From Blastococcus haudaquaticus (GTDB taxonomy: Bacteria; Actinomycetota; Actinomycetes; Mycobacteriales; Geodermatophilaceae): DNA of 64,000 nt. Position 1 is the first letter of the stretch; every line of letters starts with the position of its first letter. Shown here one piece after another: positions 18,729-36,378 of this stretch. Position numbers and translations under genes: made by a program. The notes under the pieces were generated by a model, which saw only the letters and a list, made by a program, of their open reading frames with translations, did not search any database and was not told the origin of the DNA. The stretch covers positions 62,001-126,000 of the forward strand of contig NZ_OCNK01000003.1 of the NCBI RefSeq assembly GCF_900230285.1. The letters run 5' to 3'.

Positions 18729-20192
18729 TCAGGCGCGCGAGGTCCGCGTGCGCCGACGGGAGGCCTTGACGAGGTACATCGCGGCGTCGGCGGCGTGCAG
18801 CGCGGACTCCGGGGTGTCGTCAGCCGAGCAGACGGCGACGCCGATGCTGATGCCGACGGCGTAGCCGGTGCCGTCCGTGGTGCGCAGCGGTTCGGCGAAC
18901 GCCGCGGTCACCCGGTCGGCGATCTCCTGCGCCACCTCCTCGTCGCGCACGCTGGGGCAGAGGACGACGAACTCGTCCCCGCCGATGCGGGCCACCGTGT
19001 CGCCGGGGCGCACGGCCGACTCCAGCCGCCGCCCGGCCTCGGCCAGCACCTCGTCCCCGACCGCGTGGCCGGCCGTGTCGTTCACCGGCTTGAAGCCGTC
19101 GAGGTCGCAGTAGAGGAGCGCGGCCGGCTGGAGCGCCCGGCGGGCGGCGGACAGCGACTGCTCGAGCCGGTCGAGCAGCAGGCTGCGGTTGGGCAGCCCG
19201 GTCAGCGGGTCGTGCAGGGCCGCGGTGCGCAGGGCCTCCTCCAGCTTCCGCTGGGCGGTGATGTCGATCATGGTGACCAGGGCCCCGAGCAGCTGGTCGT
19301 CCTCGTCGCGGATCGTGGCGCCCGAGGCGGACAGGAGCCGGAGGGGCTGACCGGGGGCGGAGAGCCCCATCTCGGCGTCGGAGACCCGGCCCTCGCGGTA
19401 GACGCGGGTCAGGGGCACGCGGTCGGCGGGGAGCGGATCGCCCTTCCCGTCGGTGATGCAGAAGCTCGTGGGCAGGTCCTCGACGGCCACGGTCGGGTCG
19501 GCGTCGAGACCGTGCCATTCGCGGCTGACCTGGTTGAACAGCTCGACGCGCCCCTCGGCGTCGCCCGCGACGATCCCGACGGGCAGGGCCTCGAGCAGCG
19601 CACGGATGAACGCCTCGGACCGGACGAGGTCGGCGTGCGCGCGCTCCATGCCGACCCGGGCCACCTGGGCGGCGGCCGCCACGTCGGCCAGCTGCCCGGC
19701 CTGCTGCCGGGAGCGGAACAGCGAGACGGTGACGGCGGCGAGGTCGTCGAGGCGGTCGCACTCGGCCTGGGTGAACTCGTGCGGCTCCTCGTCGAAGACG
19801 CTCAGCGCCCCCAGCAGGACGTCGTCCACCACGATCGGCGCGCTCGCGTAGGCGCGCACGCGGCCGCGACGGCCGTCGACCCAGGGGTTGCCGGCGAACT
19901 CCGGTTCGGCGGCGAGGTCGGCCACGGCCTGGGTGCCGGAGCCGCGCTGGGCCAGGGCCGCGCCGATGGACTCGTCCCGCGGCGAGGCGGCGCCGCGGAA
20001 GCCGTGGGCGGCGAGCGCGTGCTTGACCGGCGTGTCGAGGGTGTTGACGGCGGCGCAGCGCAGGCCGGCCACCGCGGCGGCGATCCGCACGATGCCGTCC
20101 AGTTCGGCGTCCGCGCTCATGCCGGGGACGCCGAACTCGTGCACGAACGCGGGCTGGCGTGCCCGCGCGTGCTGCCGTCCGGTCGTCGTCAC
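18729..20192 (-). CDS. GAF-PAS-GGDEF diguanylate cyclase
   Basis: A 487-residue soluble signalling protein. A GAF domain (about 30-165), a PAS domain (about 190-310, LLEALPVGIVAGDAEGRVEL) and a GGDEF domain (325-480) with intact GGDEF at 404-408 and DPLTGLPNRSLL. No EAL domain. It should make cyclic di-GMP from two GTP in response to a GAF/PAS-sensed signal. The GTG at 20192 is chosen because AGGAGG lies 8 nt upstream; an in-frame GTG at 20198 would leave only 2 nt. Confidence 0.92.
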   Translation of the reverse strand: MTTTGRQHARARQPAFVHEFGVPGMSADAELDGIVRIAAAVAGLRCAAVNTLDTPVKHALAAHGFRGAASPRDESIGAALAQRGSGTQAVADLAAEPEFAGNPWVDGRRGRVRAYASAPIVVDDVLLGALSVFDEEPHEFTQAECDRLDDLAAVTVSLFRSRQQAGQLADVAAAAQVARVGMERAHADLVRSEAFIRALLEALPVGIVAGDAEGRVELFNQVSREWHGLDADPTVAVEDLPTSFCITDGKGDPLPADRVPLTRVYREGRVSDAEMGLSAPGQPLRLLSASGATIRDEDDQLLGALVTMIDITAQRKLEEALRTAALHDPLTGLPNRSLLLDRLEQSLSAARRALQPAALLYCDLDGFKPVNDTAGHAVGDEVLAEAGRRLESAVRPGDTVARIGGDEFVVLCPSVRDEEVAQEIADRVTAAFAEPLRTTDGTGYAVGISIGVAVCSADDTPESALHAADAAMYLVKASRRRTRTSRA

Positions 20193-20299
20193 GTCCACTG
20201 CCTCCTGGCACGGCACCCCTCGTGGGTCCGTCTCGGTTCCGGGAACGGCAGGACTCGGTGTCGAGTTGAGGCGAGTCCCCCCATGGGGTGCCTGGCCGC

Positions 20300-20896
20300 T
20301 CAGCCGGTGAGGGCGCGGACGGTCTCGACGACGGCGAAGACCGCGAAGACGACGAAGAGCACGGCGGCGACCCGGCGGATGAGCGCGATGGGCAGCCGGT
20401 CGGCGAGCTTCTTCCCCAGGAAGACGGCGAGGCCGGAGACGACGAGCAGCGCGGCCCATGCGCCGATGAACACCGACAACGGCTCGTCGTAGCGCGCCGC
20501 GAGGCCGGCGGTGGCCAGCTGCGAGAGGTCGCCCCACTCGGCGGCGAACAGGACGCCGAAGGAGATGGCGGCCACGCGGAGGAACGAGGTGCCCTCCCTG
20601 GTCTCGTCCAGGTCCTCGTCCTCGGGCCCGCTGTTCGCGCTGCGCCACAGGATGACCGCGCCCACGAGGAAGAGCACCGCGACGACACCGCTCACCAGCG
20701 CCTCGGGAAGCAGGGAGAGCAGCGAGCCGGCGGTGACCGCGATCGCGACCTGGAGGCCGAACGCCGCGCCGACGCCGACGAACACCGGCAGCGGTGGGAA
20801 GCGGGTGGCGAGCACCAGGCTGGCGAACAGCGTCTTGTCCGGCAGCTCGACGGGGAGCACCAGGATGAACGCCGTCGCGATGACGGACAGGACCAC
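20300..20896 (-). CDS. Gdt1/TMEM165 (UPF0016) family Mn2+/Ca2+ exporter
   Basis: A 198-residue membrane protein with six predicted helices in two repeats. The two family motifs are ELPDKT (helix 1) and EWGDLSQ (second repeat), the acidic sites for divalent-cation transport. Bacterial members export manganese. GTG at 20896 with GGAGGAGA upstream. The 5' leader carries a manganese-sensing riboswitch-like structure whose downstream hairpin overlaps this ribosome site, which supports Mn2+ as substrate. Confidence 0.9.
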   Translation of the reverse strand: MVLSVIATAFILVLPVELPDKTLFASLVLATRFPPLPVFVGVGAAFGLQVAIAVTAGSLLSLLPEALVSGVVAVLFLVGAVILWRSANSGPEDEDLDETREGTSFLRVAAISFGVLFAAEWGDLSQLATAGLAARYDEPLSVFIGAWAALLVVSGLAVFLGKKLADRLPIALIRRVAAVLFVVFAVFAVVETVRALTG

Positions 20897-20906
20897 GGGA
20901 CTTCTC

Positions 20907-21068
20907 CTCCGCTGGGCGCTGCCGGGCGGAGACAGGGACGGCCTCCGACCGGGCAGCGCAGGGCTGCTGGTCGAAGGTCTCGCCCATCCACGAGGACGTG
21001 GACCCGCTGACCGGGCGCCCCGGGGGGCGCCAGCATGTCGACCAGCGGACGGGGGGCTACTCCCCTTC
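20907..21068 (-). promoter_or_regulatory. yybP-ykoY-like manganese riboswitch upstream of the exporter
   Basis: On the minus strand, AAGGGGAGTAGC (about 21066-21055) and GGGCGAGACCTTCGACC (about 20986-20970) are the two hallmark loops of the yybP-ykoY aptamer, about 80 nt apart. CGACC then pairs with GGTCG near 20945. Just downstream, CTCCGC (20931-20926) can pair with GCGGAG (20912-20907), which contains the exporter's Shine-Dalgarno, an obvious on/off hairpin. A -10-like TACCCT (21082-21077) would start transcription near 21070, right at the aptamer. Confidence 0.82.
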
Positions 21069-25110: not shown

Positions 25111-26283
25111 TCAGCCGACGGGGTGGGCGGCCTCCGCGGCCGCGGTGGCGGCTCGGAGGACCTCCTTGACCGGCAGGCCGCGCTCGCGGGCCAGCGCGGC
25201 GACGTCCTCGTACTCGACGCTCACGTTGACCACCCGCCCGTCGTGGACGGCGACCTTGGCCCCCACGGTGCCCCCGAGCACCGCCACCGACGTGTGCTCC
25301 CGCTCGAGGGCGACCTTGCCGACCGGGACCATCCGCAGGCCGATGCTCGTCGTCGTCGCGAAGACCGCGGCCTGGACGGCCGCCACGGCGTCGGGGCGGC
25401 ACAGCGCCGACAGGGTGTGCGCGGCGCGCCCCTTCTTCATCAGGATCGGCGTCAGCCAGGCGTCGGACGCCCCGGCCGCGAACAGCGCCTCGAGCACGCC
25501 GGGCCACAGGCGGGGATCGAGGTCGTCGACGTTGGTCTCCAGCACCACCGGGCCGGCCGGCTGCGGCCCGGCCGGTGAGCCCAGGACCAGCCGGACGACG
25601 TTCGGCAGCTCGACCGGATCGCGGCCACCGGCGCCCATGCCCACGCGCTCGACCCGCATGGGCGGCAGCGTCGTCCACTCGTGCACCCGGGCGGCGACCA
25701 GCGCGGCCCCGGTCGGCGTGCACATCTCCGCCGGGACGGGCCCCGCCACCACCGGGACGCCGGCCAGCAGTTCCAGCACGGCCGGGCCCGGGACCGGCAC
25801 CACACCGTGCGCGCCGCGGGCCGACCCGCTGCCCAGCGCGACCGGGGAGGCGGTCAGCCGGCTCAGTCCCAGGTGCTCGAAGCCCGCGACCACCCCGACG
25901 ACGTCGGCCAGGGCGTCGAGCGCGCCGACCTCGTGGAAGTGCACGTCCTCGGGGGAGACCCGGTGCACGCGGCCCTCGGCGACGGCGAGCCGCTCGAACA
26001 CGGCCAGCGCGCCGTCCCGGACCGGCGTCGCGAGGTCCGCAGCGAGCAGCAGCTCCCGGACGGAGGCCCAGGTGCGGTGCTCCGAGGACGGCGGCGCGTG
26101 CACGTGCACCCGCGTGGCGCCCAGGCCGTGCCGGCTCGTCTGCTCGGTGACCAGCCGGATCTGCTCGACCGGCAGGGCGGCGACCGCGCCGGTGAGGACG
26201 TCCAGCGGCACCCCGACGTCGACCAGGGCACCCAGGAGCATGTCGCCCGAGGCGCCCGCCGAGAGGTCGAGCCAGCCGATCAT
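25111..26283 (-). CDS. larC: LarC, nickel insertion enzyme of nickel-pincer nucleotide synthesis
   Basis: A 390-residue LarC (DUF111) protein, which inserts nickel into the pyridinium-dithio pincer nucleotide in a CTP-dependent reaction to make the LarA-type racemase cofactor. The N-terminal part begins MIGWLDLSAGASGDMLLGAL and includes EDVHFHEVGALDALADVVG. The C-terminal part has ETNVDDLDPRLWPGVLEALF and LMKKGRAAHTLS. It is one uninterrupted frame, unlike the frameshifted larC1/C2 of Lactiplantibacillus. A LarB domain is encoded at 30756-33587, but no larE or larA is in the window. Confidence 0.92.
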   Translation of the reverse strand: MIGWLDLSAGASGDMLLGALVDVGVPLDVLTGAVAALPVEQIRLVTEQTSRHGLGATRVHVHAPPSSEHRTWASVRELLLAADLATPVRDGALAVFERLAVAEGRVHRVSPEDVHFHEVGALDALADVVGVVAGFEHLGLSRLTASPVALGSGSARGAHGVVPVPGPAVLELLAGVPVVAGPVPAEMCTPTGAALVAARVHEWTTLPPMRVERVGMGAGGRDPVELPNVVRLVLGSPAGPQPAGPVVLETNVDDLDPRLWPGVLEALFAAGASDAWLTPILMKKGRAAHTLSALCRPDAVAAVQAAVFATTTSIGLRMVPVGKVALEREHTSVAVLGGTVGAKVAVHDGRVVNVSVEYEDVAALARERGLPVKEVLRAATAAAEAAHPVG

Positions 26284-27125: not shown

Positions 27126-27281
27126 AGGAGGCTCCTCGGCAGGCTCGAATTGCCCGGCGTCCCACTCGAACCTACGGTCGGCGACGACGAGGCGAAAGCG
27201 CACAGTCGTCCCCGGCACCGGCGCCGGACCCGGAGATGCCGAACCACCCGGACCGCCGGCCGCGAGCTCTCAGGAGCGCCC

Positions 27282-28520
27282 ATGTCGCACCCCCCGGACC
27301 AGCCGACCGCCACCGCGCCGTCGGGGAAGTTGGCCTCGAGCACCCGTTCCACCCTGCTGGGCGCCATGTTCCTCATGGCCACCTCGGCCATCGGACCGGG
27401 CTTCATCACCCAGACGACGGCGTTCACCGTGCAGCTCGGGGTCGCGTTCGCCTTCGCGATCGCCGTCTCCATCGTCATCGACATCGCACTGCAGCTGAAC
27501 GTGTGGCGGGTCATCGGGGTCTCCGGCCGACGCGCCCAGGAGCTGGGCAACCTGGTCCTGCCGGGGCTCGGCTGGGTCATGGCCGCGTTCCTGCTCGTCG
27601 GCGGCCTGGTGTTCAACATCGGCAACGTCAGCGGCGCGGGCCTGGGCACCGACGCGATGTTCGGGCTCGACCCGAAGATCGGCGGAGCCCTGTCGGCCCT
27701 CATCGCGATCGGCGTCTTCCTCAGCAAGCGGGCAGGGGTCGCCGTCGACCGGATCGTCGTCGTCCTCGGGCTGCTGATGATCGTGCTGACCACCTACATC
27801 GCGATCACCTCCGGCCCGCCGGTGGGGGAGGCGCTGAAGAACGTCGTCCTCCCCGAGGAGGTGTCCTTCCTGGCGATCACGACGCTGGTCGGCGGCACCA
27901 TCGGCGGCTACATCGTCTACGCGGGCGCCCACCGGCTGCTCGACTCCGGGGTCGCGGGACCCGAGCACGTCCGTGACATCACCCGGGGCTCGATCACCGG
28001 GATCGTCATCACCGGGATCATGCGCGTCGTCCTGTTCCTGGCCATCCTCGGCGTGGTCACCGGCGGTGCCGACCTCGGTGCCGAGAACCAGGCGGCGAAC
28101 GCGTTCCAGCAGGCGGCCGGCGAGGTCGGCCTGCGCGTCTTCGGCGTCGTCCTGTGGGCGGCAGCGATCACCAGCGTGATCGGCGCCTCGTACACGTCGG
28201 TGTCCTTCGTGACGTCCCGTACCCGCACCAGCGACCGCACCCGGACGATCCTGGTGTGCGCCTTCATCGCGGTCACCACGCTGGCGTTCGTGCTGGCCGG
28301 CGCCGCGCCCACCACCCTCCTGGTGTTCGCCGGCGCTTTCAACGGGCTGCTCCTGCCGATCGGCATCGCCGTGCTGCTGTGGGTGGCGACGCGTCGGACC
28401 GACCTGCTGAACGGCTACCGGTACCCGCGGTGGCTGCTGGTCATCGGCTGGGCCGCCTGGCTGCTGACGCTCTACCTGGCGGTCAACTCGATCCGCCCCG
28501 TCATCGAGCTCTTCTCGTGA
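27282..28520 (+). CDS. NRAMP-family transporter, YcsG-like
   Basis: A 412-residue protein with about eleven helices of the NRAMP/LeuT fold. Helix 1 is [17 protein letters not shown], where true Mn/Fe NRAMPs have DPGN, and helix 6 has YAGAHRL, where they have MPH. The metal-liganding residues therefore appear lost, as in the YcsG group linked to 5-oxoprolinase operons. The cargo could be Mg2+ or an organic acid; this is open. ATG at 27282 with CAGGAG. It leads the operon with pxpA-pxpB-pxpC, 7 nt before pxpA. Confidence 0.88.
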
Positions 28521-28527
28521 GCGCGCG

Positions 28528-29289
28528 ATGACCGCCGTGGACCTGAACTCCGACCTCGGCGAAGGGTTCGGGCAGTGGATGCTCGGCGACGACGACGCCC
28601 TGCTCGGGATCGTCACCAGCGCCAACGTCGCGTGCGGATTCCACGCGAGCGACCCCTCGATCATGAGCCGGGTGTGCGCGCGGGCCGTCGAGTCCGGCGT
28701 CGCGATCGGCGCCCAGGTCGGCTACCGCGACCTGGCGGGGTTCGGCCGCCGGTTCATCGACATGGAGCCCGACGCGCTCACCGCCGACGTCATCTACCAG
28801 ATCGGCGCGCTGGAGGCCTTCGCCCGCGTCGCCGGCGACCGGGTCCGCTACGTCAAGCCGCACGGCGCCCTCTACAACGCGATCGTCTCCCACGAGGAGC
28901 AGGCGGCCGCCGTCGTCCGGGCCGTCGTCGACTACGACCGGACGCTCCCGGTGCTGGGGCTGCCCGGCTCGGCCTGGCTCCGGCAGGCGGCCGACGCCGG
29001 GCTCACCGTGGTCCACGAGGCGTTCGCCGACCGCGCGTACACCCCCGAGGGCACCCTGGTGTCGCGGCGGCTGCCCGGTGCGGTCCTGCACGACCCGGAC
29101 GAGATCGCCCGGCGCTGCGTCGCGATGGCGGCCGGCGAGCCGATCGCGGACGTCGAGGGCGGTCCCCTGAGCCTGCGACCGGGCTCCATCTGCGTGCACG
29201 GCGACACCCCGGGCGCGGTGGAGATCGCCCGGCAGGTGCGGGAGGCGCTCACCGCGGCCGGCGTGACCCTGACCCCGTTCGCAGCGTGA
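28528..29289 (+). CDS. pxpA: 5-oxoprolinase subunit A (LamB/YcsF family)
   Basis: A 253-residue PxpA, part of the ATP-dependent 5-oxoprolinase PxpABC that opens 5-oxoproline to glutamate. It begins [20 protein letters not shown] and carries [23 protein letters not shown] and [14 protein letters not shown], all family hallmarks. ATG at 28528; its TGA overlaps the pxpB ATG (TGATG, 29287-29291). Confidence 0.95.
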
Positions 29290-29915
29290 TGCGGGTCCTG
29301 CCGAGCGGCACGACGGCGCTCCTCGTGGAGCTGGACGACCTTGATGCCGTGCTGGCCCTCTACGCCGCGCTCGCCGAGCAGCCGCCGGACGGCGTCGTCG
29401 ACATCGTCCCTGCCGCGCGCACCGTGCTGCTGATCACCGATCCGGCCCGGTCCTCCCTGTCGGACGTGGCTGACGCGGTCCGGCGGACAGCGAGGTCCGG
29501 GCCGCGTCCCGATGCCCGGACCGGCGGAGATGTCGTCGAGCTGCCGGTGCACTACGACGGGGAGGACCTCGAGGAGCTCGCGGGCCTCCTGGACCTGACC
29601 CCGGAGGAGCTCGTGCGACGGCACACCGGCGGTGAGTGGACCGTCGCCTTCGGCGGGTTCGCCCCCGGCTTCGGCTACCTCACGCAGTCCGGCGGGGCGT
29701 GGGACGTGCCGCGCCGGTCGACGCCGCGCACCAAGGTGCCGCCGGGATCGGTCGCACTGGCCGGTGAGTTCAGCGGCGTCTACCCGCGCGAGTCGCCCGG
29801 CGGCTGGCAGCTCATCGGCCGGACCGACGTCGCGGTCTTCGACCTGGACCGCGACCCGCCCGCGCTGCTGCGGCCCGGGGCCCGGGTGCGCTTCGTCGAG
29901 GCGGGCCCGCGATGA
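29289..29915 (+). CDS. pxpB: 5-oxoprolinase subunit B (KipI family)
   Basis: A 208-residue PxpB/KipI homologue (carboxyltransferase domain C/D). The conserved block GGFAPGFGYLTQSGG followed by PRRSTPRTKVPPGSVALAG is diagnostic. It works with PxpC and PxpA on 5-oxoproline. Start and stop both overlap neighbours, indicating coupled translation. Confidence 0.95.
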   Translation: MRVLPSGTTALLVELDDLDAVLALYAALAEQPPDGVVDIVPAARTVLLITDPARSSLSDVADAVRRTARSGPRPDARTGGDVVELPVHYDGEDLEELAGLLDLTPEELVRRHTGGEWTVAFGGFAPGFGYLTQSGGAWDVPRRSTPRTKVPPGSVALAGEFSGVYPRESPGGWQLIGRTDVAVFDLDRDPPALLRPGARVRFVEAGPR

Positions 29916-30772
29916 CGCGTGCCCTCACCGTCCTGGCCGCGGGCCCCCTGACCACCGTGCAGGACGCCGGCCGGCCCGGGCAGGGCGCGCTCGGCGTCGG
30001 CCGCTCCGGCGCCTGCGACCGCGCCGTGTACCGGCAGGCCAACCGGCTCGTGGGCAATCCCGAGGACCTCGCGGTCCTCGAGGTCACCTATGGCGGCCTG
30101 GCCCTGCGGGCGGAGGCCGACCTCCTGGTGGTGACGACGGGCGCGCGATGCGCGGGGCCGTTCCCGCATGCCGCGCCCACGTCGCTCCGGCGCGGAGCCG
30201 AGTTGCGACTGGGAGCCCCGGAGACCGGGCTGCGCACCTACCTCGCCGTCCGCGGGGGCATCGACGTCCCCCCGGTACTCGGGTCCCGCGCCACCGACGT
30301 GCTGTCCGGCCTGGGGCCGGCGGTGGTCGCCGACGGCGACGTGCTGCCGGTCGGTCCGCCGGTCGATCCGATGCCCGGGGTCGACGTCGCGCCGGTCCCC
30401 GGCATACCTGGCGGGGAGGTGACCGTGGCGGTGCTGCCCGGCCCGCGTGCGGACTGGTTCGGCGACGCGGGGTGGGCGGCGCTGACGGGGCAGGCCTGGA
30501 CGGTCACCGACGAGAGCAACCGGGTCGGGCTGCGCCTGGCAGGCGTTCCCCTGGAACGGGTGCGGAACGGTGAGCTGCCGAGCGAGGGGATGGTCCGGGG
30601 GGCGCTGCAGGTGCCGCCGTCGGGAACGCCGGTGCTGTTCCTCGCCGACCACCCGGTCACCGGCGGCTATCCGGTGATCGGCTACGTGGCGGACGAGCCC
30701 GTCCGCAGCGACGTCGACCGGTGCGGGCAGCTGCGTCCAGGTCAGACGCTGCGTTTCAGGGCCTCGCAGTAG
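29912..30772 (+). CDS. pxpC: 5-oxoprolinase subunit C (KipA family)
   Basis: A 286-residue PxpC/KipA protein: TTVQDAGRPGQGALGVGRSG and ANRLVGNPEDLAVLEVT at the N-terminus and VLFLADHPVTGGYPVIGYV toward the end. ATG overlaps the pxpB stop (ATGA). Its last 17 nt overlap the end of the convergent GGDEF-LarB gene. Confidence 0.95.
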   Translation: MTRALTVLAAGPLTTVQDAGRPGQGALGVGRSGACDRAVYRQANRLVGNPEDLAVLEVTYGGLALRAEADLLVVTTGARCAGPFPHAAPTSLRRGAELRLGAPETGLRTYLAVRGGIDVPPVLGSRATDVLSGLGPAVVADGDVLPVGPPVDPMPGVDVAPVPGIPGGEVTVAVLPGPRADWFGDAGWAALTGQAWTVTDESNRVGLRLAGVPLERVRNGELPSEGMVRGALQVPPSGTPVLFLADHPVTGGYPVIGYVADEPVRSDVDRCGQLRPGQTLRFRASQ

Positions 30773-33587
30773 TCATCGCGCGGCGGGCCACGCGGGCGGC
30801 GAACACGCCGGCCGAGTAGCCGTTGTCGATGGCGCTGACCGCGACGCCCGGCGCGGCCGAGTTCAGCATCGTCATGAGCGCGCCCAGGCCGGCGAAGGCG
30901 TTGGGCGCACCGGTCGACGTCGGCACCGCGACCACCGGGACGTCGGCGGTCGCGCCGACCAGCGCGGCCAGCGAGGCGTCCATCCCGGCGACGACGACCA
31001 GGCAGTCGGCGTCGGCGAACAGCGAGCCGTCGGCCAGCAGCCCGCGGATCCGGCTGCCGGCGACGTCGTCCACGCGGACCACCTCCGAGCCCGCGATCCG
31101 GGTGACGAACGCGGCCTCGGCCGCCACCGGACCGTCGGCGCCACCGGCGCACAGCACGTGCACGCGCCCCACCGGTTCCGGGAGCGGCCCGACGGCTGCG
31201 GCCATCGCGGCGGCGTCCATCGTCGTGTAGGCGTCGTGCTCCGAGGCCACGGCGACGAGCGTCTCGGCGGCGGCCCGCAGCACCAGCGCCGGGCGGTCGG
31301 GGTGTTCGCGACGGGCCTCGCGGACCAGCGCGAGGACCTGCTCGGTGGTGCGGCCGGTCGCCCAGATGACCTCGGGCTCGACCGCCGGGGGACGGGGCGC
31401 CGCCACGTGCGCGACGACCTGCTCCGGCACCTGCTCCAGCACGACGGCGGGCTCGAGCACCGGCCCGAGCAGCGGCTCGGACGGTGTGCCCGAGCCGAGC
31501 GGCGGGTCGACCAGCACGGGGGCGAACGCGGCGGTCTCGGACGGCGCGGGGCGGGGATCCAGCGGGGAAGGCTGCACGGCCGCGACGGTAACCGCCGCGT
31601 CGTCCTCCTCCGGGGACTCCACCGGGGCCGTGTCGTCGGCCGGCCCGGTCGACGGAGGCGGGCCGAAGAGGGCGTCGAGCGGGCTGGTGCCGGGGGCCCG
31701 GGTCTGGGTCACGCCGGAGAGCCGTACGACGCGGTCGCGGCCGCTGCGCTTGGCGTCGTAGAGGACGCCGTCGGCGGCCGCGAACAGCGTCCGGCGGTCG
31801 TCGCCACGGGCGGCGGAGGCGATGCCGACGCTGATCGTGACCGGGATGTCGATGCCGAGCCGCGACCAGTCGTAGGTCGCCACGGCCCGGCGGATGCGCT
31901 CCAGCGCCCGCTCGCCCTGCTCGGCGGTCGTGTCGGGCAGCAGGATGACGAACTCGTCGCCGGCCCAGCGGCAGACCTCGTCGGTGTCGCGGACCCCGTC
32001 GACCAGCAGGTCGGCCACGGTGCGCAGGGCGGCGTCCCCGGCCGGGTGCCCGAAGGCGTCGTTGATCGTCTTGAACCGGTCCACGTCGACCACGGCGAGC
32101 GCGGGCGCCCCGCCGGTGGCGAGCAGGCCGTCCAGCCGGGCCTCGGCGTAGCGGCGGTTCGGCAGGTGGGTGAGCGGGTCCTCGTACGCCTGGCGGCGGA
32201 GCTGACCGGCGGCCCGCTCGGTCTCCAGCAGGCTCTTGCGCCGGCCGAAGAGCTCGACCCAGCGGGTCCGGCGCTCGTCGACCCGGTCGAGCTCGTCGGA
32301 GAGGTAGGCCTGCAGGTAGGGCAGCGCGCGGCCGGCGTCGTCCAGCTCGGCGTGCAGCGTGCAGAGCTCGCGCAGCGCGGCCCGGCGCAGGCGGGGGAGG
32401 CCGTGCTCGGTGGCCAGGTTCAGCGCGGAGACCAGGTGCTCGTCGGCCCCGCCGACGTCCCCCTGGCGGCGCAGCGCCCGGCCGAGGGCGAGCTGCGCGG
32501 AGGCGAGCTGGGCACGGTCGGCGGTCGCGGAGGTGATGCGGACGGCGGCGCGGAGCGGGCCGACGGCGGCGGCGTGCTCGCCGAGCCCGACGAGGGCCCA
32601 GCCGTGCACCACCTGTGCGGTGACGATGCCCGGGTGCTCCGGCGGCAGCAGGGCCAGGGCCTGCTCGGCGAGCGCGCGGGCCTCGGCGAAGTGCGGGACC
32701 GCCGACTCGGGGACGCCGTCGTCCAGCAGGCCCTCGCCCAGCTCGGCGCAGAGCTCGCCCAGGCTGGTGGCCGTGGTGGCGACCAGCACGTCGGGATCGC
32801 CGTCGTCCGGTCCCAGCGTGCCGGGCTCGGCGGCCGCGGTGATCGCGACCTCGTGGCCCCGGCGCTGGTAGTCCAGCGCCAGCGGCATGAGCTCCAGGTC
32901 GGCGAGCACGCCGGCGAGGGTGCCGAGGGTGTCCACGAGCAGCGCGCTCGGCGGCAGGACGGGGTCCAGGAGGCTGGCGGCCTCGACCGCCTCGTCCATG
33001 GCGGCGTCGATGCGCCGGGAGAGCAGCTCGATGCGCGCGTGCCGGGCCAGGCCGGCGGCGCGCTGCAGGTCGTCGTCGGTGGCGTCGAAGGCGGCCTTCG
33101 CCGACCGGACCAGCGCGATCGCGAGCGCGGCCCGGGAGGCGGACTCGGCGCGCGGGTCCTCGCCGCCGCCGTCGCCGTCGATCAGCTTCTCGACCCCGGC
33201 GTGCAGGTCCAGGGCCTCCTCGGAGGAGTCGCCGCCGGTGACCGGGTCGCCCACGAGCGTGAAGCCCGCGACGCGCAGCCGGCGGACCAGCAGCTCGGCG
33301 CGCAGCGTGTCGGCCCAGGCCTTGCCGAGCGAGACGGGGGCGTCGTCGGGCGCGTCGGCGCCCGGGTCCGCGGCCACGTAGGGCGACGGCTCCTGCTCGA
33401 CGTCGGCGAGGAGGTCCTCGGCGTCGTCGAGCTGCCAGTTCGCCAGGGCGGCGGTCACCCGATGATGCAGAGCTCCGGGCGGCACGAGCGCACTGTGCAC
33501 GGCGGGGGGAGCGGTGTCGAGCACCTGTTCGGGAACGCGCCGCAGGCCGCCCGATGCGTCCCACGCGTCCCACGCCGAGCGCGTCAC
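30756..33587 (-). CDS. Fusion protein: helical repeats, GGDEF (AGDEF) domain, LarB domain
   Basis: A 943-residue single reading frame. Residues 40-455 are Ala/Leu-rich TPR-like helices. A GGDEF domain spans about 465-625 (YEDPLTHLPNRRYAEARL, DVDRFKTINDAFGHPAGD), with the motif altered to AGDEF at 542-546. A Pro/Glu-rich linker (about 630-735) leads to a LarB domain (736-940): EVIWATGRTTEQV, CAGGADGPVAAEAAF, VVVAGMDASLAALVGATADV, VAVPTSTGAP and IDNGYSAGVFAARVA. LarB carboxylates and hydrolyses nicotinate adenine dinucleotide for the nickel-pincer cofactor. LarBs usually read MLNSC; here it is MLNSA. GTG at 33587 overlaps the upstream stop (GTGA), so it is coupled to the preceding GGDEF gene. 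Confidence 0.88.
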   Translation of the reverse strand: MTRSAWDAWDASGGLRRVPEQVLDTAPPAVHSALVPPGALHHRVTAALANWQLDDAEDLLADVEQEPSPYVAADPGADAPDDAPVSLGKAWADTLRAELLVRRLRVAGFTLVGDPVTGGDSSEEALDLHAGVEKLIDGDGGGEDPRAESASRAALAIALVRSAKAAFDATDDDLQRAAGLARHARIELLSRRIDAAMDEAVEAASLLDPVLPPSALLVDTLGTLAGVLADLELMPLALDYQRRGHEVAITAAAEPGTLGPDDGDPDVLVATTATSLGELCAELGEGLLDDGVPESAVPHFAEARALAEQALALLPPEHPGIVTAQVVHGWALVGLGEHAAAVGPLRAAVRITSATADRAQLASAQLALGRALRRQGDVGGADEHLVSALNLATEHGLPRLRRAALRELCTLHAELDDAGRALPYLQAYLSDELDRVDERRTRWVELFGRRKSLLETERAAGQLRRQAYEDPLTHLPNRRYAEARLDGLLATGGAPALAVVDVDRFKTINDAFGHPAGDAALRTVADLLVDGVRDTDEVCRWAGDEFVILLPDTTAEQGERALERIRRAVATYDWSRLGIDIPVTISVGIASAARGDDRRTLFAAADGVLYDAKRSGRDRVVRLSGVTQTRAPGTSPLDALFGPPPSTGPADDTAPVESPEEDDAAVTVAAVQPSPLDPRPAPSETAAFAPVLVDPPLGSGTPSEPLLGPVLEPAVVLEQVPEQVVAHVAAPRPPAVEPEVIWATGRTTEQVLALVREARREHPDRPALVLRAAAETLVAVASEHDAYTTMDAAAMAAAVGPLPEPVGRVHVLCAGGADGPVAAEAAFVTRIAGSEVVRVDDVAGSRIRGLLADGSLFADADCLVVVAGMDASLAALVGATADVPVVAVPTSTGAPNAFAGLGALMTMLNSAAPGVAVSAIDNGYSAGVFAARVARRAMTTARP

Positions 33588-35320
33588 GCGGGTGCCTCGT
33601 CGTCGGTCGGGTCGTCGGTCGGGTGGTCGTCGGTCGGGTGGTTGTCGGTCGGGTGGTGGCCGGACGGCTCCTCGCCGGCCGACGCCCCGGGGGCGCGGAC
33701 GCGGTTGCGACCGCTCCGCTTGGCCGAGAACAGGTGCAGGTCGGCGGTGTCGAACAGCGCCTTCCAGCCCACGACGGTGGCCGGCTGGCCCTCGTCGACC
33801 GCCGGTGCTGTCGCGACGCCGATGCTGACCGTGACCGGGCCCGGGATCAGGTCGCTCCAGTCGGCCGCGGCGACCGCGGCGCGGAGCCGCTCCATCACCA
33901 CGACGGCCTGTGCCTCCGTCGCGGTCGGGAGCACGACGAGGAACTCGTCGCCGGCCCAGCGGTAGACCTCGTCGCCGGTGCGGATGTGCTCGCGCAGCAG
34001 GTCGGCGACCCGGCGCAGGACGGCGTCCCCGTGGGTGTGGGAGGCCTCGTCGTTGACCTTCTTGAACCGGTCGACGTCCACGACCGCCAGCGACAGCGGC
34101 TCGTCGCCCAGCCGCATCGCCCCCAGGCGCCGCTCGGCGCTGCGGCGGTTGCCCAGCCCGGTCAGCGGGTCCTCCAGCGCGTGCCGGCGCAGCAGGGCCG
34201 CCTGGCGCTCGGCCTCCCGCAGCCGGCTGCGGCGGACGAACATCTCCGCCCACATCTCGCGGGAGCGCGAGTGCGCCCGGCCGCTGTCGGCGCGGTAGGC
34301 CTCCAGCCAGTGCAGCGCTTCGGCGGGGCGGCCCAGGTCGGCGGAGTTCTGGCCGAGTTCCAGCAGGCACTGCCGGTAGCGACGGCGGTCGCCGGAGGCG
34401 ACGAAGCCACCGGCGGCGTCGACCAGCAGGCCGATCGCCTCTTCCCCGTACTCCTCGTCCTCGTCGCGCCGGGCCACCCGCACGAGCAACCGGGCCAGCA
34501 CCAGGTCGGTGTAGGCGCGCAGCCACAGGCCGCCGTGCTCCTGCACCCGGCGGCGGACGCGGCGCAGCGGGCCGACGGCGCCGTCCAGGTCGTCGGAGCT
34601 GTTCAGGGCCCACGCCTGGACGACGTCGAGCAGGTCGGCGTCGGCGGGGTCGGGCTCCCACGCCATCTCGCGGGCCTCGGTCGCCTGGGCGATGGCGACG
34701 GCGGCCAGCGCCCGGGCGCGCTCGGAGTCCCCGCGACGGCGGAGGGTCTGGGCGAGCTCGGCGTGCTGCTGGGCGGAGAGCTGCAGCATCTGCCACTGGT
34801 CGGCCAGGTCGGGCAGCACGGCGGCGATCCGGTGGCCCCGGCCGGCGTGGCTGACGGCCAGCTCCTCGAGGTCCAGGCCCGACAGGGAGAGGGACAGCCA
34901 GCGGTGGGCCTGGTGCAGCGCCCGGGTGGGCTCCCCGGCGTTGGGGCCCTCCGTGAGCAGGCTGGCGTCGACGGCGAGGAGCATCGCGGCGTCGAAGTGG
35001 TCGGCGGTGACCTCGACGTGGGCCAGGTAGGCGAGCGTGAGCGCGGTGTCCGCCGACGGCGGGCACTTGTCGAGCGCCTCACGGGCGGCGGCGACCGCCT
35101 CGGCCGCGCCCTCCGGGTCGCTCTCGATCAGCGCGCGCCGGGCCGTGAACGCCTGACCCCAGGCGGTCCACCGGGGTTCGGTCGACTCCGCGAGCGCCCC
35201 GTCGGCGTCGTCGAGGAGGGTCAGGAAGGCGGTGGAGTCCTCGCGCGAGCTGGCATCGAGCAGGCGCCACAGCACGGCGGTCAGGTCGCCGGAGGCGACG
35301 CGTGCCGGGCCGGAGTTCAA
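33584..35320 (-). CDS. TPR-like plus GGDEF-domain protein
   Basis: A 578-residue cytoplasmic protein with a long helical-repeat region (about 10-365) and a GGDEF domain (380-545): LEDPLTGLGNRRSAERRL, DVDRFKKVND, and AGDEF at 456-460 in place of GGDEF. Some AGDEF proteins are active cyclases, so activity is open. The start is a TTG at 35320, supported by GGAGGG 5 nt upstream. The C-terminus is a repetitive His-Pro-Thr-Asp tail encoded by 15-bp repeats. It resembles the N-terminal two thirds of the next gene, suggesting an old duplication. Confidence 0.88.
   Translation of the reverse strand: MNSGPARVASGDLTAVLWRLLDASSREDSTAFLTLLDDADGALAESTEPRWTAWGQAFTARRALIESDPEGAAEAVAAAREALDKCPPSADTALTLAYLAHVEVTADHFDAAMLLAVDASLLTEGPNAGEPTRALHQAHRWLSLSLSGLDLEELAVSHAGRGHRIAAVLPDLADQWQMLQLSAQQHAELAQTLRRRGDSERARALAAVAIAQATEAREMAWEPDPADADLLDVVQAWALNSSDDLDGAVGPLRRVRRRVQEHGGLWLRAYTDLVLARLLVRVARRDEDEEYGEEAIGLLVDAAGGFVASGDRRRYRQCLLELGQNSADLGRPAEALHWLEAYRADSGRAHSRSREMWAEMFVRRSRLREAERQAALLRRHALEDPLTGLGNRRSAERRLGAMRLGDEPLSLAVVDVDRFKKVNDEASHTHGDAVLRRVADLLREHIRTGDEVYRWAGDEFLVVLPTATEAQAVVVMERLRAAVAAADWSDLIPGPVTVSIGVATAPAVDEGQPATVVGWKALFDTADLHLFSAKRSGRNRVRAPGASAGEEPSGHHPTDNHPTDDHPTDDPTDDEAPA
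33602..33658 (-). repeat. 15-bp tandem repeat coding the His-Pro-Thr-Asp tail
   Basis: Plus-strand units GTCGGTCGGGTGGTN (33614-33628, 33629-33643, 33644-33658) with a 12-bp partial unit at 33602-33613. They encode HPTDD/HPTDN at the end of the upstream GGDEF protein, so unit gain or loss would change tail length without shifting the frame. Confidence 0.8.
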
Positions 35321-35433: not shown

Positions 35434-36378
35434 ATGTCCGGGATGCCACCCAGAACGCCCCCGACGAGGTTCGCCTATCTCGGGCCCGAGGGTACCTTCG
35501 CCGAAGCGGCGCTCCGCAGCGCCGTTGCCTCCTCCGAGGGAGCCCGGTACCCCCACCCGAGTGTGGCCGCCGCACTGGCCGCCGTCCGATCGGGCGACGC
35601 CGACGCCGCGCTGGTTCCGCTGGAGAACTCCGTCGAGGGTTCGGTGCCCGCCACGATGGACGGGCTGGCCGACGGCGAGCCGCTCGTCGTCACCCGCGAG
35701 GTGTTCCTGGACGTCGCGTTCGTCCTCGCCGTCCGGCCCGGCACCGCGCTCGGCGACGTGCGCTCGGTGGTCAGCCACCCCCACGCGCTGGCGCAGACCG
35801 CCGGGCGGCTGGCGGACCTGGTCCCCGACGTCGTCCCGCTGCCGCTGTCGTCCACCGCGGTCGCGGCCGCGGCCGTCGCCGCGGGGGAGTACGACGCCGC
35901 CGTGTGCGCCCCCATCGCGGCCGAGCGCTACGGGCTGGTGCCGCTGGTCGAGGACCTCGCCGACACCCCCGGCGCGGTGACCCGCTTCGTCCTGGTCGAG
36001 CCGGCCGGCGCGCTGCCGGCGCCGACGGGCAACGACAAGACCTCGCTGGTGGCGGTCGTGGAGGACCGCACCGGCGCGCTGCTCGACGTGCTGCGGGAGT
36101 TCGCCGTCCGCGGCATCAGCCTCTCCCGGATCGAGTCGCGCCCCACCCGGGACCGGCTCTGGGTGTACTCGTTCTCGCTGGACTGCGAGGGCCACGTCGC
36201 GGAGCGGCGGGTGGGCGAGGCGCTCGCCGCGCTGCACCGGGTCTGCGAGGACGTCCGCTTCCTCGGGTCCTACGCCCGCGCCGACGGCCGGGAGAACCGC
36301 CCCGTGCAGCCGGGGGCGGACGACGCGGCCTTCACCGAGGCCGACGCCTGGCTGGCCGCCATCCGCGGAACCGCCTGA
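35434..36378 (+). CDS. pheA: Prephenate dehydratase
   Basis: A 314-residue monofunctional prephenate dehydratase (prephenate to phenylpyruvate, phenylalanine synthesis). The PDT domain starts RFAYLGPEGTFAEAAL and holds PLENSVEGSVPATMDGL and the catalytic Thr-Arg-Phe in AVTRFVLVE. A C-terminal ACT domain (GALLDVLREFAVRGISLSRI, ESRP) gives phenylalanine feedback control. It is divergent from the GGDEF gene. Confidence 0.95.
   Translation: MSGMPPRTPPTRFAYLGPEGTFAEAALRSAVASSEGARYPHPSVAAALAAVRSGDADAALVPLENSVEGSVPATMDGLADGEPLVVTREVFLDVAFVLAVRPGTALGDVRSVVSHPHALAQTAGRLADLVPDVVPLPLSSTAVAAAAVAAGEYDAAVCAPIAAERYGLVPLVEDLADTPGAVTRFVLVEPAGALPAPTGNDKTSLVAVVEDRTGALLDVLREFAVRGISLSRIESRPTRDRLWVYSFSLDCEGHVAERRVGEALAALHRVCEDVRFLGSYARADGRENRPVQPGADDAAFTEADAWLAAIRGTA

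Follow-up and report, generated by a model that had tools for sequence, protein, structure and literature searches.

LarB (pyridinium-3,5-biscarboxylic acid mononucleotide synthase; PDB 7mj0-7mj2, 8soq, 8stc and 8std) is an enzyme of nickel-pincer nucleotide (NPN) cofactor synthesis that carboxylates and hydrolyses nicotinic acid adenine dinucleotide, and PleD-type GGDEF proteins are diguanylate cyclases, which synthesize cyclic di-GMP (c-di-GMP). The ammonium transporter-GGDEF proteins (PDB 8qj3, 8qj4 and 8qpf, considered by their molecule names only) likewise join a metabolic protein to GGDEF. No report of a GGDEF-LarB fusion, of an NPN enzyme with a diguanylate cyclase, or of GGDEF joined to an AIR carboxylase or a pseudoenzyme was found in the open-licence literature, which was judged partly by titles and the starts of abstracts. 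Here we describe a gene that encodes such a fusion of TPR-like, GGDEF and LarB-like parts. It lies in a 64,000-nucleotide stretch of Blastococcus haudaquaticus (assembly GCF_900230285.1, contig NZ_OCNK01000003.1, positions 62,001 to 126,000), which is referred to as the window.

Set against LarB, the window domain lacks Cys221, Ser127, His158-Arg159 and Tyr204-Gly205, scores under the equivalog cut-off, is fused to GGDEF and belongs to a type that is kept in genomes without larE. With PleD the fusion shares the metal/GTP motif, the I-site RxxD and the AK..GR motif; it differs in having AGDEF (83 copies) or AGDEY (three copies: loci L102, L104 and L113 of genomes G007, G003 and G005) instead of GGEEF, a TPR-like input region and a C-terminal LarB-like module. 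In the ammonium transporter proteins the partner is a transporter and the GGDEF match is C-terminal; in the present fusion GGDEF precedes its partner, an enzyme fold that lacks the catalytic Cys. The likeness to the PurE/AIR carboxylase fold is weak: Pfam AIRC matched residues 860-935 with 30.9 bits (cut-off 30) and purE reached 21.8 bits (cut-off 149.6), while the strong AIRC match of the window genome (220 bits) sits elsewhere.

Translation of the minus strand gives one stop-free frame of 943 residues with a predicted mass of 98.0 kDa, within the 97-100 kDa expected in the initial annotation. Both separate profile matches proposed there as a check proved significant. Pfam GGDEF (PF00990) matched residues 467-619 with E 1.2e-38 and 132.9 bits, well above its cut-off of 23.8, and NCBIfam LarB (NF033503) matched residues 738-935 with E 1.1e-43 and 149.4 bits, below the equivalog cut-off of 175. 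The C-terminal domain has the LarB fold. The motif had been read correctly as AGDEF. The description of the N-terminal part as TPR-like helices stands in so far as the model of this region is all-helical, with block predicted local distance difference test (pLDDT) values of 88-98 across residues 151-430, and Pfam TPR matches are present, though weak. Because the best of them (TPR_MalT, 30.8 bits) misses the cut-off of 45, only the label TPR-like is used. Modelling drew on 40 and 27 rows.

The metal/GTP motif, the I-site RxxD, the AK..GR motif and [A/G]GDEF all aligned with PleD, and the GGDEF motifs (metal/GTP, I-site and AGDEF/AGDEY) are intact in all 86 in-frame family copies. Since these motifs are intact and align with PleD, the GGDEF part is likely to synthesize c-di-GMP.

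The LarB part presents a different picture. Residues were numbered from an alignment with Lactiplantibacillus (L.) plantarum LarB, and 92 fused copies were compared with 22 stand-alone family copies; active-site roles were taken from the title of the LarB structure paper and from PDB titles (S127A variants). Position 221, which we take to be the LarB catalytic residue (a cysteinyl-pyridine intermediate is known from the paper title), is Cys in 22/22 stand-alone copies and in none of the 92 fused ones, where it is Ala (70), Ser (10), Thr (6), Gly (4) or Pro (2). It is also the only Cys among the columns that are at least 90% conserved in the stand-alone set. Ser127, the residue altered in the S127A LarB structures, is likewise present in 22/22 stand-alone and 0/92 fused copies. 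Four further residues that are invariant in the stand-alone copies have nearly or wholly disappeared from the fused ones (Tyr204 0/92, Gly181 0/92, Gly205 4/92, His158 8/92), with the pair His158-Arg159 mostly lost. Because Cys221, Ser127 and Tyr204 are gone from all 92 copies, the fused domain is very unlikely, judging from its sequence, to be a working LarB.

Other parts of the domain are strongly conserved. Glu134, Thr200, Ser201 and Asp231 are each kept in 92/92 fused copies and Asp128 in 90. Two residues invariant in the stand-alone copies have been replaced by new, near-fixed ones, Lys57 by Arg746 (91/92) and Gly181 by Ala871 (92/92). Among the 92 fused copies, 71 columns are at least 95% conserved, and 27 of these differ from the stand-alone majority residue. 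The LarB part seems to have lost its chemistry yet retained its fold.

The spread of the fusion, a survey suggested by the initial annotation, was followed in 97 Geodermatophilaceae genomes, each at least 85% complete. A LarB match was present in 96 of them. The fused type occurs in 92 genomes of nine genera, and four genomes (genera g5 and g6) hold stand-alone larB only. In the remaining genome, G075, the apparent loss is due to a contig end after the linker and is no demonstrated loss: the contig has 119818 bases and the match runs to base 119610. Fused and stand-alone types were told apart by their identity to the window domain, with a threshold of 56% that was set after viewing the values and without use of the Cys; stand-alone copies fall at 45-55% and fused copies at 57-100%. 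The 22 stand-alone copies compared above comprise the four of g5 and g6 and 18 others, and the survey matched more than these. Both a fused-type and a stand-alone-type match were present in 16/16 genomes of the window's genus, with in-frame fusion checked for part of these.

Contig ends cut four of the 92 fused-type copies before GGDEF, and in 86 of the other 88 the GGDEF motif and LarB share one frame. Long spurious frames are common in this high-GC DNA, and an assembly or gene-calling artefact had to be weighed for that reason; it was ruled out, with a practically negligible probability left to it, by recurrence in many genomes, by the named records and by the codon signature of selection. 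The same in-frame copies, together with the translation and ratios of nonsynonymous to synonymous substitution rates (dN/dS) below 1, bear out the earlier reading of a single unbroken frame. The named records, taken from the best 80 of 90 loci, belong to Blastococcus, Geodermatophilus, Modestobacter, Klenkia, Goekera, Trujillonella and unclassified Geodermatophilaceae, along with one 'Frankiales' metagenome-assembled genome and one unverified 'Bacillus' record. The latter, L180, titled 'UNVERIFIED_ORG: Bacillus sp. AZ43', carries a fused-type domain at 86% identity and looks mislabelled.

Outside the family, 396 order-level and 393 class-level genomes were scanned, both draws including family members, and part of the outside matches was examined as loci. 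An in-frame GGDEF was found in 0/18 order-level loci, drawn from among the matches listed, and in 0/12 class-level loci; the phylum level was not searched. The 12 class-level loci include the six non-family matches with the longest frames (735-1250 aa). Cys occupies position 221 in all 18 and all 12 of these outside loci.

Retention of the fused domain was compared with that of the NPN pathway from presence lists of larE, larC and LarB, which were read by eye. Among the 97 family genomes, larC was found in 68, LarA in 30 and larE above cut-off in 61; G089 has a 71-bit larE fragment only and was not counted as lacking larE. Beyond weak background matches, 35 genomes are without larE. All 35 are also without stand-alone LarB (E 1e-5), and 29 of them without larC. 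The fused domain is kept in 34 of the 35, the exception being the contig-end case G075, and 28 of these 34 are without larC. The window genome itself has a separate stand-alone LarB with the Cys (241.6 bits), adjoining larE. A working LarB tied to signalling was rejected, by the absence of Cys221 and Ser127 from all 92 copies and by persistence of the fusion without larE. The earlier suggestion that the fusion ties cofactor supply to a nucleotide signal is likewise not supported, for the fused LarB lacks catalytic residues, the genome has a stand-alone LarB and the fusion outlives the pathway. When such genomes are annotated, a LarB or AIRC domain match should not be read as evidence that NPN is made.

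The domain is nevertheless constrained. In 13 pairs of copies, 11 of them within larE-less genomes, dN/dS of the LarB domain ranged from 0.06 to 0.49 (median 0.16), compared with 0-0.14 for GGDEF and 0.28-0.70 (median 0.43) for the linker. All four regions gave values below 1 in 13/13 pairs, and the linker was the highest region in 12/13. Being kept in larE-less genomes with low dN/dS, the fused domain appears to be under selection for something other than NPN synthesis. Genomes without the pathway but with the dead domain make this new role directly testable.

Gene order indicates where the fusion arose. The order pheA (divergent), TPR-like/GGDEF, TPR-like/GGDEF/LarB was read in 31/31 fused loci over at most 19.5 kb, with the upstream TPR-like/GGDEF match split across two frames in G031 (L111); in 22 of them the stretch read also contains larC, downstream of the fusion. 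In the window, the upstream paralogue is 40% identical to the fusion protein across residues 157-666. In g5 and g6, which gene order would suggest to be basal, pheA-larB-larC occurs without GGDEF genes in three of four genomes, and the contig of the fourth ends at larB. The order's other families supplied 18 loci: larC adjoins larB in 16 of these and a divergent pheA is nearby in six, with no GGDEF match. In a midpoint-rooted tree of 30 of the 92 fused, 15 of the 22 stand-alone and 18 outside copies, all 30 fused rows fall on one side of one branch (support 100/100, length 0.71 changes per column). From the synteny we infer that larB was captured in place by a neighbouring GGDEF gene. This looks like a clear enzyme recruitment: the slot that holds a Cys-bearing larB in neighbouring lineages holds, in Geodermatophilaceae, a Cys-less larB joined to a signalling enzyme, and a second larB, which in the window genome stands beside larE, is found where the NPN pathway survives.

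We consider it somewhat probable that the protein is a diguanylate cyclase that captured larB and retained the dead LarB at its C-terminus, flexibly tethered, as a module with no enzymatic role. Two TPR-like/GGDEF genes would have come to lie between pheA and an ancestral larB-larC, and the second would have become joined to larB in one reading frame. The LarB part would then have lost Cys221, Ser127, the Tyr204 loop and, in most copies, His158-Arg159 while selection retained its fold. In the present protein, the TPR-like region may receive a signal, the helix before GGDEF may relay it, and GGDEF, to judge from its intact motifs, would make c-di-GMP under I-site feedback. An excerpt of PMC8325347 reports the c-di-GMP-binding twin-motif RsiG in 16/16 Geodermatophilaceae species, so c-di-GMP receptors probably exist in the family. 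The linker measures 65-180 residues across the 86 copies (median 109), and because of this length a tethered assembly or docking domain fits better than rigid allostery. The LarB module would most likely serve assembly by bringing cyclases together, its remodelled nucleotide pocket possibly modulating this. Some PurE PDB entries are titled octameric; the literature consulted yielded octamers for LarA but no oligomeric state for LarB. Assembly is the role we put first, tentatively; ligand sensing is a possible but less likely one, and partner docking an unlikely one. The initial annotation had also offered the GGDEF fold as a regulator or binding module. The idea of a module survives, but the partner that changed is LarB, the GGDEF motifs being intact in 86/86 copies.

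The main rival to assembly or docking is nucleotide sensing, in which the remodelled pocket would bind nicotinic acid adenine dinucleotide, NAD, AMP or another nucleotide and tune c-di-GMP synthesis to the pyridine-nucleotide state. AMP and NAD are held in solved LarB structures, according to PDB titles, and the invariance of Glu134, Thr200-Ser201 and Asp231, the near-invariance of Asp128 and the newly fixed Arg746 and Ala871 speak for this reading. The active-site positions 159, 185 and 204-206, however, vary among the fused copies themselves, and the linker is long and disordered. We therefore regard the sensor reading as doubtful, and its broadest form, a cofactor-enzyme fold turned into a pyridine/adenine nucleotide sensor controlling c-di-GMP synthesis family-wide, as slightly more doubtful again. 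We know of no earlier case of a dead LarB serving as a LarB-type sensory domain.

Several observations weigh against the captured-module account or limit its reach. With a disordered linker of about 100 residues in between, it is less natural to suppose that the LarB module controls GGDEF directly by allostery. LarB is out of frame with GGDEF in two of the 88 uncut copies (G046 and G085; L138 and L164), and one of the 86 in-frame copies, that of G008 (L100), has a stop inside the GGDEF match; sequencing error is possible in all three. Position 184 is mostly Ala in fused copies and Pro in the 22 stand-alone ones, but Ala also occurs there in the active L. plantarum enzyme, so this position is uninformative on activity. 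Because the tree has a midpoint root and includes 30 of the 92 fused copies, the case for descent from the pheA-linked larB has to be made from synteny. In the pair G036/G037 the LarB-domain dN/dS (0.49) exceeds that of the linker (0.45), and greater divergence, with identity down to 57-59%, is seen in the copies of G020, G034, G035 and G096; because of that pair and these four copies, constraint on the LarB domain must be said to vary. The same two facts, with the long branch leading to the fused clade, are what would be expected if the domain were a roleless passenger in slow decay. This is improbable, however, for a domain present in 92/97 genomes and nine genera, with a median dN/dS of 0.16 and with so many near-fixed columns, 27 of them in states other than the stand-alone majority.

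The last such point is G057, where larE and stand-alone LarB are missing although the genome carries both the fusion and a LarC close to normal, with 1 of 120 near-invariant residues altered; the account does not explain this combination. Together with the larC downstream of so many fused loci, it could be taken to mean that the fused domain still yields the LarB product by another mechanism and ties NPN synthesis to c-di-GMP. Loss of Cys221 and Ser127 from every fused copy, persistence in the 34 larE-less genomes, most of them also without larC, and the window genome's own Cys-bearing LarB next to larE make this highly improbable.

Features of the fusion locus in the window, with the evidence for each
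Feature	Position	Strand	Basis
larC, sole copy found in the genome	25159..26274	-	PF01969, 434.6 bits
TPR-like/GGDEF/LarB-like fusion gene, 943 codons, GTG start	30756..33587	-	open frame, domain matches, conserved architecture
LarB-like domain without catalytic Cys, residues 738-935	30783..31376	-	NF033503 and AIRC matches; alignment
Ala911 codon, corresponding to LarB Cys221	30855..30857	-	alignment
Disordered Pro-rich linker, residues 626-731	31395..31712	-	pLDDT <50
GGDEF domain, residues 467-619; AGDEF at 542-546; I-site RxxD	31731..32189	-	Pfam match; PleD alignment
Helix leading to GGDEF, residues 418-467	32187..32336	-	predicted single helix; pLDDT <50 at 446-458 and 460-464
TPR-like helical region, residues 39-417	32337..33473	-	weak Pfam TPR matches; all-helical model
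Upstream TPR-like/GGDEF paralogue	33584..35320	-	TGA overlaps the fusion GTG by 4 nt (GTGA)
Divergent pheA-like gene, a marker of the ancestral larB site	35434..36378	+	name read from sequence, no family search; seen near larB in other loci

Some features of the surrounding genes and of the remaining NPN genes deserve mention. No LarA match (PF09861) was found in the window genome, which does hold larB, larC and larE (window 25159-26274; G000:C2:8560-10004). Because these three are present but LarA is not matched, NPN in this genome may serve another user protein. In five genomes without larE or stand-alone LarB (G030, G033, G017, G026 and G028; loci L075, L105, L117, L124 and L126), a degenerate but stop-free larC lies downstream of the fusion. 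Between 18 and 29 of the 120 near-invariant LarC residues are altered in these, including a His/Glu/Asp cluster, and LarC may here be following LarB down the same path.

Between the fusion and larC, the window carries NRAMP-like and pxpABC-like genes (about 27280-30772, plus strand), named from their sequence with no family search; of the 31 fused loci, those of G001, G003 and G033 gave matches to this set as well. A GAF-GGDEF protein is encoded downstream of larC (18729-20987, minus strand), and a number of relatives likewise have a GGDEF match a few kilobases downstream of the fusion.

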